DNA of 52,589 nucleotides from IMG/VR virus record IMGVR_UViG_3300031251_000969, positions 1-52,589 of that record. One strand, written 5' to 3'. The DNA is from a virus. Positions 17,433 through 30,088 of the stretch are shown in pieces (position 1 is the first letter of the stretch; each line of letters begins with the position of its first letter). The notes below the pieces were generated by a model. It did not search any database, had not been told where the DNA came from, and saw only the letters and a program-made list of their open reading frames with translations. The position numbers and the translations under genes were made by a program.

Positions 17433-17746
17433 TGTCGGGAATTCGCGAAGCACTCGACACCTACCCGCTCGCGCGCTGGCTGCGCCGCGGCCCAATGGAT
17501 CTGCGGCCATCGCTCGCCAAGCACCTCGAGCAGAACACCGAACCGCCCGCAGCGCCGAATCCAGAACAGCCGGTGCGCGCACTCGTCGCACAGCTTGACC
17601 GGCTGATCGGGGAGTGGCGCACACAGGCGCAACAGCTGGATTCAACTGGCCCCACATTCGGGCCCAATGCCGAACGCGTGACCGTGCTCATTGAATGCGC
17701 GAACGAACTCGACCAACTGCTCAACGAAGGGAAGCCAAGCGCGTGA
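17432..17746 (+). CDS. Hypothetical protein
   Basis: This 104-residue protein has a basic start (LDTYPLARWLRRGPMDLRPS) and a long helical end (RALVAQLDRLIGEWRTQAQQ). Its stop overlaps the GTG of the zinc-ribbon helix-turn-helix gene. The function is unknown. Confidence 0.55.
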   Translation: MSGIREALDTYPLARWLRRGPMDLRPSLAKHLEQNTEPPAAPNPEQPVRALVAQLDRLIGEWRTQAQQLDSTGPTFGPNAERVTVLIECANELDQLLNEGKPSA

Positions 17747-18729
17747 GCATGATGTGTCAGCGTTGTGGCGGCCGTGCCGATGTCTACCTGTGCCGCGAAT
17801 GCGGAAAGCAGCTGCGCGACAACCTCAAGCAGATTCCCTGGCTGTCTGATCGTGTCGCTGAGGCCGCAGTGAAGGAAACCAACATCACACTGTCGCTGTC
17901 GAAGATCGGCCGCGCGCCGAAAACCGAGGACGAAGAAGAATCGCCCGTACCGTTCAGCCAGCCCGCACATCAGGCGTACGCACACATCGAGACCGTGCTG
18001 CGACGCTGGGTACGTGACTTCTGCGACCAGCTCAGCGTCGAATTCGAGCCCATCGACACCGTGCCAGCCGATTTCATCGGACCGCTACCGCGGTTCGGCC
18101 GATACCGTCAAGGCCGCTACGTGGCCGATCCGCGCGACCGGCGGCGAATCAAACCCGGCTACCTGCCCACAATCCGCGACATGGCGCGCTGGCTCGGCGC
18201 GCACTACCTCGACATCGTCAATTCCGAGGATGCCGCGTACTTCTCACACGAGATCGACACCATCATCCATAGCGGACTCGATGTCATCAACCCGCCGCGC
18301 AAGACGTTCGCCGGCCGATGCCCGACGAAGATCAACGGCACCGACGAGAAGTGCGGCGTCGACATCTGGATCGACTGGAATGACGACACCGCGCGGATCG
18401 CCGATTTCGTCACCTGCCATCGCTGCAAAACGACCCACGACTCGAAAGCGCTGCGCGATAACGCGCTACGCGAAGCCGAACACATGCTGATGACCCAGTC
18501 GGAGATCATCGACATCATGGCCAAGTTCGGCGAACCTCTCTCGCCCAACACATTCAAGAAGTGGCGCAAGAACAAGCGACTCACACCGCGCGGATGGAAA
18601 TACGGCGACCGAATCATCGATCGCCGTATCCACCACTACGACCCGGCCGTCTACCGATTCGGCGATGTGCGCACGCTCTGCGAGAACCGGCGACATAATC
18701 AGCGAAAGACAGCCGATGCCACGGCGTGA
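17743..18729 (+). CDS. Zinc-ribbon and helix-turn-helix DNA-binding protein
   Basis: This 328-residue protein opens with CQRCGG and CRECG (a zinc ribbon), has a second Cys set mid-chain (CPTK, CGVD, CHRC), and ends in a helix-turn-helix (LMTQSEIIDIMAKFGEPLSP then NTFKKWRKNKRL), followed by a MerR-like wing. Such proteins are common in actinophages near the end of the early operon and are thought to bind phage DNA. It is a candidate regulator of the downstream promoter at 19.6 kb, inferred from position only. Confidence 0.65.
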   Translation: MSMMCQRCGGRADVYLCRECGKQLRDNLKQIPWLSDRVAEAAVKETNITLSLSKIGRAPKTEDEEESPVPFSQPAHQAYAHIETVLRRWVRDFCDQLSVEFEPIDTVPADFIGPLPRFGRYRQGRYVADPRDRRRIKPGYLPTIRDMARWLGAHYLDIVNSEDAAYFSHEIDTIIHSGLDVINPPRKTFAGRCPTKINGTDEKCGVDIWIDWNDDTARIADFVTCHRCKTTHDSKALRDNALREAEHMLMTQSEIIDIMAKFGEPLSPNTFKKWRKNKRLTPRGWKYGDRIIDRRIHHYDPAVYRFGDVRTLCENRRHNQRKTADATA

Positions 18730-18941: not shown

Positions 18942-19262
18942 TCAGCTAGCGCGATGCTCGAGGTGTTCCTCGATGAGTCGGCGCGCGAACTTCGATACCG
19001 ACATGCCGGCGTCCTTGGCTTCGGCCGCCAGCTGATCGCGGTGATCCTGCGATAGCACCACCTGCACTACCGGCGAGCGCTTGGTGGCATCACCTGACAG
19101 CGACTTTCCGCCAGGGATCAACCCGGCGCGCTGCCGGAACTTCGGCAGCACCTCTTCGGCCACCCGCGCCGCGGCCATCTCTTCCTCGGGCGTCAGATCC
19201 GCGTCCACGACCTCGAAGTCTTCCTTCGAGAAGTCGGGGAATCGCTTGTCCGCCATGGTCAT
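18942..19262 (-). CDS. Ribbon-helix-helix antitoxin-like protein
   Basis: The C-terminal half of this 106-residue protein (SPVVQVVLSQDHRDQLAAEA then GMSVSKFARRLIEEHL) is a ribbon-helix-helix DNA-binding unit. The acidic N-terminal half is the usual toxin-contact type of segment. ATG 19262 shares its A with the toxin stop (TGATG), so the pair is translationally coupled. An upstream in-frame GTG and a downstream ATG (19256) are alternatives. It probably represses its own promoter through the 14-bp inverted repeat at 19501-19544. It is transcribed against the early operon. Confidence 0.65.
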   Translation of the reverse strand: MTMADKRFPDFSKEDFEVVDADLTPEEEMAAARVAEEVLPKFRQRAGLIPGGKSLSGDATKRSPVVQVVLSQDHRDQLAAEAKDAGMSVSKFARRLIEEHLEHRAS

Positions 19263-19492
19263 CACTCCCAGTTCTTCCGGTAGCTGGTAGGCATCGCGTG
19301 GATGCAGGTCCAGGAATCGTCCTCGTTGGCGACGAGAATGATCTCGAACTCGACGCCGTGCGAATCGGTGCCGATGTAGTAGGCGCGGTTGCCGTCGATC
19401 AGGAGCGGATTGCCAGCGTGGCGGAGCGCCTCCATCAGGCGCCCGTTGCCTGCACGACGCCGGGCTGCTGCTGTCATCCGTACCTTGCTCAT
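19262..19492 (-). CDS. Toxin-like protein of a type II pair
   Basis: This 76-residue basic protein ends in a beta-rich core (YYIGTDSHGVEFEIILVANE then WTCIHAMPTSYRK). The IHAMP-x-x-x-x-K ending and its place directly before a ribbon-helix-helix gene suggest a compact RelE/BrnT-like toxin. The family is not certain. The toxin-first order resembles BrnTA and HigBA. No Shine-Dalgarno precedes the ATG; the -10 box ends six bases upstream, so the mRNA is probably leaderless. Confidence 0.55.
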   Translation of the reverse strand: MSKVRMTAAARRRAGNGRLMEALRHAGNPLLIDGNRAYYIGTDSHGVEFEIILVANEDDSWTCIHAMPTSYRKNWE

Positions 19493-19498
19493 GACTCT

Positions 19499-19544
19499 AG
19501 TATGTATTAGATACTCGGCATAGTCAACGGGTATCTAATACATA
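19499..19544 (-). promoter_or_regulatory. Toxin-antitoxin promoter and operator
   Basis: TATGTATTAGATAC (19501-19514) and GTATCTAATACATA (19531-19544) are a perfect 14-bp inverted repeat with a 16-bp spacer. On the minus strand TTGACT lies in the spacer, and 17 bases later CATACT (19499-19504 complement) forms a -10 box. Predicted transcription begins at or next to the toxin ATG. Both operator half-sites overlap the core promoter, so binding would block polymerase. Confidence 0.7.
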
Positions 19545-19590: not shown

Positions 19591-19619
19591 TCGACACGCT
19601 TCTGACCAGCAGATATAAG
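19591..19619 (+). promoter_or_regulatory. Rightward sigma-A-type promoter
   Basis: TCGACA (19591-19596) and TATAAG (19614-19619) are separated by exactly 17 bp, each matching 5 of 6 consensus bases. The predicted start is about 19626. It lies downstream of the leftward toxin-antitoxin promoter and ahead of a short leader with an intrinsic terminator, then the packaging and structural genes. It is the best rightward promoter I see in the window. Confidence 0.6.
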
Positions 19620-19625
19620 CAAACA

Positions 19626-19748
19626 GAGCGCAGAATGGGATTCGCATAGGTAGAAGTTGTACCCTACCTACAGCGCGGTCGACGCTACCCAAAAGCTGAT
19701 TCTGACCGCGAACCCGCTTGCCGCTGCCGCCGTGTGAACGGCGGTTTT
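19626..19748 (+). ncRNA. Candidate structured short RNA / late leader
   Basis: About 123 nt lie between the predicted start and a terminator. Three hairpins follow each other: TAGGTAG/CTACCTA (19647-19670), CGCGGTC/GACCGCG (19674-19710), and the terminator stem (19727-19744). No convincing gene fits, apart from a 4-codon frame at 19634 and a possible 26-codon TTG-started frame. By analogy with the lambda pR'-tR' leader it could be a constitutive short RNA extended only when an antiterminator acts, or a stand-alone regulatory RNA. This is inference. Confidence 0.4.
19727..19748 (+). terminator. Intrinsic terminator
   Basis: CCGCCGT (19727-19733), a GTGA loop, ACGGCGG (19738-19744) and TTTT give a textbook rho-independent terminator, reading rightward just ahead of the region leading to the packaging genes. 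Confidence 0.7.
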
Positions 19749-19869: not shown

Positions 19870-20043
19870 ATGGAAACAGCAGTCAGCCGTCAGCAACGCT
19901 TGCTCGAATCGCTACTCGCGCAACGTAAGAACTGCGGCGGCGGAATCGACACCGGCGACTGCCGTCGACAACGCTGCAAGCGCTGTCGACGTGGAATCGA
20001 ACACCAGCGCCGCAGCCTGCACCAACCACGCCGAATCCGATGA
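19870..20043 (+). CDS. Possible small Cys/Arg-rich protein
   Basis: The frame is open from TTG 19792; ATG 19870 would give 57 residues (METAVSRQQRLLESLLAQRK, then a CRRQRCKRCRR cluster). It overlaps the next start by ATGA, the junction style of real genes here, but it has no clear ribosome binding site and competes with two other open frames. A hairpin (CGTCGACA/TGTCGACG, 19963-19991) lies inside. I rate it uncertain; the 19749-19869 stretch holds nothing else I can name. Confidence 0.35.
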   Translation: METAVSRQQRLLESLLAQRKNCGGGIDTGDCRRQRCKRCRRGIEHQRRSLHQPRRIR

Positions 20044-20201
20044 TTCTCATCTTCGAGCTGATCGGCACTGTTCACGAATTCCTCATGCGCCGCGACCGTC
20101 GACGCTACAACGCCAACTGCTACGCCTCGGCGCTGCAGGCGGACGTCGGCTCACCAGCTCGGCGAATCATCGGAGATTCCAAAGGATTACGAGATGCTTG
20201 A
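20040..20201 (+). CDS. Small hypothetical protein
   Basis: This 53-residue protein begins with a hydrophobic helix (MILIFELIGTVHEFLM) followed by a basic stretch (RRDRRRYN), like a short membrane-associated peptide. It overlaps the next gene by eight bases. The function is unknown. Confidence 0.5.
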   Translation: MILIFELIGTVHEFLMRRDRRRYNANCYASALQADVGSPARRIIGDSKGLRDA

Positions 20202-20568
20202 TCGCAGCAACATCGCCGAGCGCGTCACCGCACGCGTGCAAGCCAATCCGGCCACACGGCCAGAACCCGAAATCGGATCGGGCACACAACTATCCGAACG
20301 CGCACAGGCCATCACCGATTGGTGCATGGATGCCACCATCCATGCGCCCGACGGCCGCGTCATGGTCGAACACCAGCGACTGTGCGGCGACCGCGAATAC
20401 GCTGAGGCATTCGCGGCCATCATCGACCAGCAGCTCACCATCAGCCTTGACGAGAACGATCTGGCCATTCTGCTGGGCAATCCACGCGGCCAGTTCCGCA
20501 TGTATCAGCTCGCACCGCTGATCGCCGCCGACCTGATGCGCGAACTACGGGATCTCGGCCATGTCTGA
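20194..20568 (+). CDS. Hypothetical protein
   Basis: This 124-residue acidic helical protein (QAITDWCMDATIHAPDGRVM; ISLDENDLAILLGNPRGQFR) has no recognised domain. It overlaps both neighbours. Confidence 0.6.
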   Translation: MLDRSNIAERVTARVQANPATRPEPEIGSGTQLSERAQAITDWCMDATIHAPDGRVMVEHQRLCGDREYAEAFAAIIDQQLTISLDENDLAILLGNPRGQFRMYQLAPLIAADLMRELRDLGHV

Positions 20569-20785
20569 TCCGCGCTACGGACCGCTATCCGGACTACTCG
20601 ATCTCTCACGCGACCTGGCCGGCAAAGCCAACGGAACACGCACACATGAGCAGAACGTGCACGCCATCTTCGCCATCGTGCGACGCAAGGCTCACCCAGC
20701 AGCACGACTGCGCTGCAACGCAGACGGCAGCTACACCATCACCATTCCGCCACAACCGAAGTCACAGAACGGAGCAACACCATGA
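20561..20785 (+). CDS. Hypothetical protein
   Basis: This 74-residue protein has a helical first half (YGPLSGLLDLSRDLAGKANG) and a beta hairpin (LRCNADGSYTITIPPQP). No family is recognised. ATGA overlap with the next gene. Confidence 0.55.
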   Translation: MSDPRYGPLSGLLDLSRDLAGKANGTRTHEQNVHAIFAIVRRKAHPAARLRCNADGSYTITIPPQPKSQNGATP

Positions 20786-21135
20786 GCATCATCAACAGCA
20801 TCGAGAACGAGATCGAGAAGGCACGCATCATCGAGGAGTTCACCAAGAACGCCACGCTCATCCGCAACGCTGTCGAAGAGCTGCGGCCAGTGCTAGGTGA
20901 CCTCGACAACGCACTGCCAGAGCCGTACAAGAGCGACCTCGCCAAGGTGCTCGAGGTCTTCGACACCATCGACAAGCTCAGCCACGCCGTGCAGACCTAC
21001 GCCGTGGTAGCCGACCCTGTCGCAACACAGCAGCCCGTACTTGATCCGCCGGTCGACTACCAGGCGCTCGCAGCCAGTGCCAACGCGGCAGAGATCAACG
21101 CCGCCGCCGCCGAGCTGACCGCCGACGACCAGTAG
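20782..21135 (+). CDS. Hypothetical helical protein
   Basis: This 117-residue protein starts with a charged coil (MSIINSIENEIEKARIIEEF) and ends in an Ala-rich tail. It contains no motif I recognise. The small HNH gene follows after 22 bases. Confidence 0.6.
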   Translation: MSIINSIENEIEKARIIEEFTKNATLIRNAVEELRPVLGDLDNALPEPYKSDLAKVLEVFDTIDKLSHAVQTYAVVADPVATQQPVLDPPVDYQALAASANAAEINAAAAELTADDQ

Positions 21136-21157
21136 AACCCCGGCCTAGGCCGCAGCA

Positions 21158-21499
21158 ATGGCCGGCACTCACAAGCGATCAACAACCGCTCGCGGACTCG
21201 GACATCGACATCGCAAGCAGTCTGAGTACCTGCACTCGACCCATCAAGACGGCACACCGTGCTGGTGGTGCGGCAAACCGATGTACCGAGATCCCGTACG
21301 CAATTGGGATGGCCGCAAACTCAGCGCAGACCACTCCATACCGCGCAGCAGAGGTGGAACCCTCGCCGACCGGCTCCTGCACTGGCAATGCAACACCGAC
21401 CGCGGCGACGGCAGCCACGACCATCTACGTCCAGCGCTGACCGGCGGGATGGTGACCGACGCAACGGATCTGGGCACGCTGCAGATGGCATGGCCGTGA
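21158..21499 (+). CDS. HNH endonuclease
   Basis: This 113-residue protein has the HNH signature: CWWCGKPM (first zinc pair), LSADHSIPRSRGG (the catalytic His of the DH pair), and LLHWQCNTDRGDG (Asn and second metal region). HNH proteins encoded next to terminase genes are needed with TerL for specific cos cleavage in several cos-packaging phages. The position, immediately before the candidate cos region and TerS, fits that role rather than a homing function. Confidence 0.82.
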   Translation: MAGTHKRSTTARGLGHRHRKQSEYLHSTHQDGTPCWWCGKPMYRDPVRNWDGRKLSADHSIPRSRGGTLADRLLHWQCNTDRGDGSHDHLRPALTGGMVTDATDLGTLQMAWP

Positions 21500-21779
21500 T
21501 CCTCCCGGATGGGCACCATCGCCGGCCGGCGCTGGACACCGACCGGGCGGGTGGTCACCATGCCCCACACCCGGTCGTGTTAGACGGTGACCGCTGACCA
21601 TGCGACCGGTCCCGCTGCGGACCCGGAGGGCGAGCGCCCCACCCCCGAAAAAATCGGACCCCCCGGGGGGTTGGTCGAAATGACCGGCTGGTCGCGGTTT
21701 TTTTTACAGCGTCTGACCTGCGCGAACTCGGAGGGTGACCGATCGGTGACCATCCGACCATCCGGGGAGGTGACCCATC
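21500..21779. other. Candidate cos / packaging initiation region
   Basis: This non-coding stretch between HNH and TerS holds the perfect palindrome ACCCCCCGGGGGGT (21658-21671), a T8 run (21698-21705), and five copies of GGTGACC or its complement (21553, 21586, 21734, 21745, 21769), with a sixth just upstream at 21451. Clustered short repeats flanking a GC palindrome beside terminase genes are what terminase-binding and nicking sites look like. No gene with good codon use is seen; the open frame across 21587-21889 has poor composition. Confidence 0.45.
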
Positions 21780-22121
21780 GTGAGCGATCACCGCGGACCG
21801 GCCGGGGAGCGTCTTCACGCGAGTTTGAGCGTGGATGGCGACCCGGCGTGGCTGGATTTGATGATCGCCGAGGCGTGCCGGATGGCTGATCGGCTGGAGA
21901 AGTTTGATCGGCTGTTGCGCGGCGACATTCACACGTGGCTGTACCTGGATCTGGACACGATCGATTCGGGCCGTGTGGCGATTGTGCTGAACAACGCGGT
22001 CGGTGAGGCTCGCCAATTGGCCGGCGTCTTCGCGCGGTTGATCGGGGAGATCCGTAAGGCTCGCGCCGAGGTGGACGCGGCCAATCCGGTGACGGTCGGC
22101 GATGAGTTCGACGCTGTGTGA
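21780..22121 (+). CDS. Terminase small subunit candidate
   Basis: This 113-residue protein begins at GTG 21780 behind GGGGAGGTGA. It is helical (DLMIAEACRMADRLEKFDRL; ARQLAGVFARLIGEIRKARA), with size and position typical of small terminase or terminase-associated proteins that recognise cos. It overlaps TerL by 20 bases. The assignment is mostly positional; no helix-turn-helix is obvious. Confidence 0.55.
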   Translation: MSDHRGPAGERLHASLSVDGDPAWLDLMIAEACRMADRLEKFDRLLRGDIHTWLYLDLDTIDSGRVAIVLNNAVGEARQLAGVFARLIGEIRKARAEVDAANPVTVGDEFDAV

Positions 22122-30061: not shown

Positions 30062-30088
30062 GAAACCCCGTGCATTGCACGGGGTTTC
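30062..30088 (+). terminator. Terminator-like hairpin before the major tail gene
   Basis: GAAACCCCGTGC and GCACGGGGTTTC make a 12-bp perfect stem with a 3-base loop, followed after CGTCA/GTCA by a T5 run (30093-30097). It would reduce transcription entering the major tail gene or protect an mRNA end created there. Confidence 0.65.

Follow-up and report, generated by a model that had tools for sequence, protein, structure and literature searches.

A putative late promoter followed by a terminator, and a candidate regulator, in actinobacterial phages encoding phrog_908

Introduction

What is the function of the 158 bases that precede the late genes of an actinobacterial prophage at positions 19591–19748? 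The window, by which we mean the whole stretch of 52,589 nucleotides of IMG/VR record IMGVR_UViG_3300031251_000969, is a temperate phage with its genes in prophage order. The first-pass annotation, made from the letters alone, read the segment as a promoter, three hairpins, and a terminator. It proposed either a lambda-6S-like leader, with an antiterminator among the unnamed early genes, or a stand-alone regulatory RNA made in the lysogen. Here, we compare the segment with related phage loci and with published transcription data.

Position of the segment in the phage

The genes of the window are ordered as recE/recT-like genes, replication initiator, RuvC, phrog_908, minus-strand brnAT, the segment, and the late operon, and the integrase gene is the last (Table 1). 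The segment is placed between the brnAT cassette and the late operon, which contains HNH, terminase, and tail genes, so that the segment stands ahead of the packaging and structural genes, as first annotated. The earliest plausible gene starts of the late operon are at 19870, 20040, and 20194. Across the segment, open frames are limited to one TTG frame of 26 aa and subsequent TTG/GTG frames with no clear ribosome site, in agreement with the earlier view that it holds no convincing gene. The inverted repeat upstream of brnT is probably the operator of the brnAT pair. The DNA of the pair and its operator (18942–19544) is common to Gordonia phages Eyre and PhrostedPhlake and Mycobacterium phage JustASigh. 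Several unlike phages have a toxin-antitoxin module placed between their phrog_908 gene and late leader (L149 3956–4734; L178 5996–6530; window 18942–19492), of the HicAB type in Santhid and Adephagia and of the BrnAT type in the window. Strong terminator-like hairpins are also present within the structural gene region, at 30085 and 31171 (−17.5 and −35.5 kcal/mol, respectively).

Table 1 Features of the late-gene leader and its surroundings. Coordinates refer to the window unless a locus is named.
Feature	Position	Strand	Remarks
phrog_908 gene	17695–18729	+	344 aa; candidate late antiterminator or activator
brnA/brnT-like toxin-antitoxin pair	18942–19492	−	between phrog_908 gene and putative late promoter
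Inverted repeat upstream of brnT	19501–19544		17 bp; outside leader
Putative late promoter core	19591–19619	+	TCGACA 19591–19596, 17 nt, TATAAG 19614–19619
Spacer element CTGACCAGC	19602–19610	+	CTGACCWGC in relatives, just upstream of −10
Leader hairpin 1, TAGGTAG/CTACCTA	19647–19670	+	arms 19647–19653/19664–19670; window-specific
Leader hairpin 2, CGCGGTC/GACCGCG	19674–19710	+	arms 19674–19680/19704–19710; window-specific
Leader box CGCTACCCAAAA	19683–19694	+	matches TGCCCAAAA beside terminator in relatives
Intrinsic terminator GCCGCCGTGTGAACGGCGGTTTT	19726–19748	+	stem CCGCCGT/ACGGCGG 19727–19733/19738–19744, then TTTTCTCG
Late operon start	19870–22121	+	small genes at 19870, 20040, 20194, 20561, 20782
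HNH nuclease	21158–21499	+	in late operon
CTGACCWGC copies between HNH and terminase small subunit	21713–21721; L155 6877, 6945, 6979		
Further CTGACCWGC copies between HNH and terminase small subunit	L214 4873, 4917; L263 1578, 1622		
Terminase small subunit	21780–22121	+	in late operon

Promoter, hairpins, and terminator of the leader

The promoter-like letters and the three stems with the terminator are present where the first-pass annotation had located them, and all three 7-bp stems are perfect. The exact −10 element is uncertain, as either TATAAG (19614–19619) or AGATAT (19611–19616) could serve, and transcription is expected to start near 19626, which is a guess at the position. A stock consensus scan of the window did not call the site at 19591–19619, because the scan demands a T at the sixth position of the −10 element; a scan of the window for sigma-70-like promoters on the plus strand downstream of the terminator found none. 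A matrix constructed from the relatives, with the window left out, gives position 19602 the top rank among about 105,000 positions on both strands, but is not fully independent since the motif first came to notice by eye and by its resemblance to the window. The putative promoter is thus supported by conservation rather than by a consensus scan. The spacer element CTGACCWGC is a candidate binding site for the late regulator. A −10-like CAGAAT is located in the region that would be transcribed initially (19632–19637). In loci L213, L217, L226, L230, L232, and L251, a second element, TAGGCG, follows about 13 nt after the −10 sequence TAGGCT/TACGCT and is absent from other leaders; it is a candidate sigma-pause element of the kind used by Q systems.

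The terminator hairpin forms eight pairs (19726–19745, −15.4 kcal/mol) about 100 bases downstream of the promoter. Three perfect 7-bp stems within 158 nt were reached in none of 2000 shuffles. However, as many stems occur in 19 of the 664 sequence windows taken from this phage (3%), so that, taken by themselves, the stems are moderately unusual at most and provide weak evidence. In 13 aligned, widely differing leaders, the promoter core and the terminator are constant, and so is the (A/G)CCC(A/G)AAA box between them, which has the form GACGCTGCCCAAAAGC in Gordonia phage Gudmit. On either side of the box, the window has insertions that set it apart from the other aligned leaders, and these contain stems 1 and 2. 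The alignment rules out conservation of all three stems, which the first-pass annotation had suggested looking for; the terminator hairpin alone recurs. The RNA antiterminators encoded by put of phage HK022 are structured leader RNAs made from a phage promoter that act through conserved RNA stems, unlike the extra stems here.

The interpretation of the segment as a new structured RNA is not supported, because hairpins 1 and 2 are not conserved. A stand-alone three-stem regulatory RNA made in the lysogen would be in keeping with the lack of a coding gene within the segment and with a folded leader that is more stable than its shuffles (z −2.24, 3/200), but stems 1 and 2 are missing from relatives and Rfam covariance models gave zero matches to the segment, even at E≤1. 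In addition, prophiGD21-1 carries the leader, and the repressor alone was reported as expressed in the RNA-seq profile of its lysogen (PMC8092301). This M. abscessus profile argues against a regulatory RNA made in the lysogen, although very short RNAs would probably be missed. We therefore regard the stand-alone RNA as the least probable of the explanations considered here.

Recurrence of the leader in phages encoding phrog_908

The layout of promoter and terminator is found in many phages of Mycobacterium, Gordonia, Rhodococcus, and Tsukamurella that encode phrog_908. CTGACCWGC is located just upstream of the −10 element, and the terminator follows tens of bases on, before HNH/terminase, usually soon after the phrog_908 gene. 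Relatives with both promoter core and terminator upstream of HNH/terminase include prophi91-3, prophiGD53-3, IdentityCrisis, prophi89-1, prophiT36-2b, WST1, prophiT36-2a, and Whack; among IMG/VR prophage loci of the IdentityCrisis type (L155–L176), the leader is present in 22 of 22. Most of the phrog_908 phage records opened have a short non-coding gap ahead of HNH/terminase. CTGACCWGC is commoner on the coding strand, with 22 versus 7 occurrences in phage loci and 35 versus 0 in IMG/VR loci. In many genome leaders, TTGACA or CTGACC precedes TA(G/C/T)GCT by about 21 nt, and the hairpin begins within tens of bases. The distance from CTGACC/TTGACA to the −10 element can be 3, 11, or about 21 nt, and this variation counts against the reading as a switch.

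Searches with the window itself were less productive: blastn with the leader matched the brnT promoter region only, an exact 17-mer from the leader had zero matches in viral contigs, and no close relatives of the window phrog_908 protein or of the 20194 protein were found in viral contigs. A search of viral contigs for the stem pattern was abandoned as too unspecific, the matches listed being unrelated loci. A tRNA considered for some late gaps was unconfirmed in L137, L148, and L151.

Sixty phrog_908 genome loci were scanned over 2 kb downstream of the gene for a −10 hexamer with a terminator after it. The test is independent of the CTGACCWGC motif, with a −10 pattern picked after some of these leaders had been seen, and the pair was found on the coding strand in 17 of the 60 loci, on the other strand in 2, and in shuffled sequence in 0–4. 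That only 17 loci pass this strict test counts against the switch. With the same pattern, a −10-like hexamer lies upstream of 11 of 20 terminators beside the phrog_908 stop codon versus 1 of 103 control terminators taken from the same loci (Fisher p 1.2e-9). This enrichment and the strand bias of 17 versus 2 speak against a terminator that merely ends upstream, early transcription and is preceded by promoter-like bases by chance, as does the opposite orientation of the window's upstream neighbours, brnAT. Such an explanation would fit the common occurrence of terminators after early operons, and the moderate rarity of the stems; we consider it improbable, if a little less so than the stand-alone RNA.

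The presence of phrog_908 and of the leader was compared in seven records. Hedwig and GEazy have neither phrog_908 nor a leader-like gap before HNH, which counts in favour of the switch. Mbo4 lacks phrog_908, yet its late gap contains a long hairpin. In Eyre and Ruthy, phrog_908 is present and a leader was not recognised, which counts against the switch.

Copies of CTGACCWGC are also located between HNH and the terminase small subunit (Table 1), there as CTGACCTGC, often in the form CTCTGACCTGCGGAAACGC and repeated, and the motif is therefore perhaps not promoter-specific. The same regulator may bind here a second time, or the copies may serve as a packaging signal. A GC-rich inverted repeat with a T8ACAG run between the two genes of the window (21650–21705) is probably the cos region, and the Mbo4 genome end would map there.

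The phrog_908 protein

The phrog_908 protein is composed of a zinc ribbon, helices, a second zinc ribbon, and a C-terminal helix-turn-helix. Its relatives are encoded in 168 phage records, and of 401 genomes of the bacterial family to which Tsukamurella belongs, 101 encode it. It has no match to antiterminators or Q in Pfam and NCBIfam, and a PDB profile search gave no match. Structure prediction from the single sequence of the window protein reached a pLDDT of 36, and that of a homologue with a 14-sequence alignment 74.8. In a fold comparison with the PDB, for which the model is of moderate confidence, the best match had an E value of 0.79, and none was to Q. Because neither sequence nor fold matches, phrog_908 would be an analogue of Q, and we do not claim membership of that family. 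Fold and profile comparisons with phrog_908 did not bring up AlpA as a relative.

Late transcription in cluster K phages

Adephagia and Fionnbharth both encode phrog_908. The Adephagia counterpart is gp72; gp78 was considered and rejected, as it is phrog_2342. PhnA, named below, is a zinc-ribbon protein. According to the Adephagia study (PMC11373665), gp72 is non-toxic when expressed, its predicted structure is closest to PhnA and a terminase small subunit, and RNA-seq indicates that late transcription appears to begin between genes 92 and 93. We found that this gap contains TTAGACT, a CCCAAAA box, and a terminator-like hairpin. The equivalent gap of Fionnbharth contains the same series, and late transcripts that start in it must cross the terminator, because only about 30 nt are left after the hairpin. 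Late transcripts of cluster K phages thus probably cross a promoter-proximal terminator. Adephagia resembles the window in the promoter-box-terminator series of the gap to which its late transcription is mapped; the paper, in its accessible text, describes neither a promoter element nor a terminator in the gap and gives no role for gp72 (PMC11373665). Two features of cluster K count against the switch: the leaders lack the CTGACCWGC motif, and the Adephagia gp72 gene is about 9 kb upstream of the leader rather than adjoining it.

A model of late-gene control

We consider it fairly probable that the segment is a late promoter with an attenuating terminator, which polymerase passes in the presence of a phage factor, possibly phrog_908. 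RNA polymerase would start near 19626, make a leader of about 120 nt, and mostly halt at the terminator, whose last base is 19748. During the late part of the lytic cycle, a regulator encoded by the phage, most likely the phrog_908 protein, would act at the promoter, with CTGACCWGC as the candidate site, and let polymerase past the terminator into the late genes. What is observed is a set of elements that recur in relatives and are linked to phrog_908. We infer promoter activity, control at the terminator, and the role of phrog_908 as the factor, with CTGACCWGC as its site.

The main rival is an activator acting on a promoter with a leaky terminator. Transcription would begin only after phrog_908 or another factor had recruited polymerase to an otherwise silent promoter, and the terminator would be a weak insulator against stray early transcripts, which a promoter grown strong would partly read through, with no antitermination. 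Partial read-through without any factor is possible, because several of the terminators have weak T tracts. The relatives lack a consistent −35 box, which is typical of activated promoters. The C-terminal helix-turn-helix of phrog_908 gives weak MerR-like matches, and MerR proteins bind promoter spacers. The late region was reported to be largely silent in lysogens of M. abscessus prophages (PMC8092301), as expected of an activated promoter. Nevertheless, we consider activation alone unlikely, as a terminator within the first 40–120 nt of the late operon, in many unlike leaders, would cost late expression unless it were used for control.

The proposed attenuating arrangement resembles the lambdoid pR'/tR'/Q systems of lambda, 21, and 82 in having a regulator gene, late promoter, short leader, intrinsic terminator, and late operon, with a conserved promoter element beside the −10, a place shared with the Q binding element (PMC6606751). 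With Q systems in general, the likeness, that of a late promoter and then an intrinsic terminator ahead of the late genes, is one of sequence layout. CTGACCWGC is conserved where Q systems bind their antiterminator, between −35 and −10, and is a candidate site whose spacing varies in some lineages. Unlike Q proteins, phrog_908 has two zinc ribbons in addition to its C-terminal helix-turn-helix. Lambda 6S RNA is roughly 200 nt long, whereas many leaders here are much shorter. AlpA of Pseudomonas aeruginosa is an antiterminator that binds between −35 and −10 via a C-terminal helix-turn-helix and is alike in the proposed role, in that polymerase bypasses a promoter-proximal terminator, but it controls a host cell-death operon and not phage late genes (PMC9371919).

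Of the two initial proposals, the lambda-6S-like leader is well supported in its geometry by the relatives and the Adephagia RNA-seq. The antiterminator expected among the early genes has a candidate in phrog_908, encoded upstream. The RNA of the lysogen, taken as having three conserved stems, is not supported, with promoter and terminator as the only conserved parts. More tentatively, and with doubt prevailing, we speculate that phrog_908 founds a new, widespread family of actinobacterial phage antiterminators unrelated to known Q, which load at CTGACCWGC-type promoters and carry polymerase through a terminator within the first 40–120 nt of the late operon.

Late-gene activation in mycobacteriophages and their kin is largely unknown; a 2022 review stated that few mycobacteriophage late promoters have been characterised and called for work on these (PMC9262239). 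Our analysis provides a control module defined by sequence and a named candidate regulator. If true, the model would mean that a switch working like that of the lambda late genes operates in another bacterial phylum as well, through another protein.
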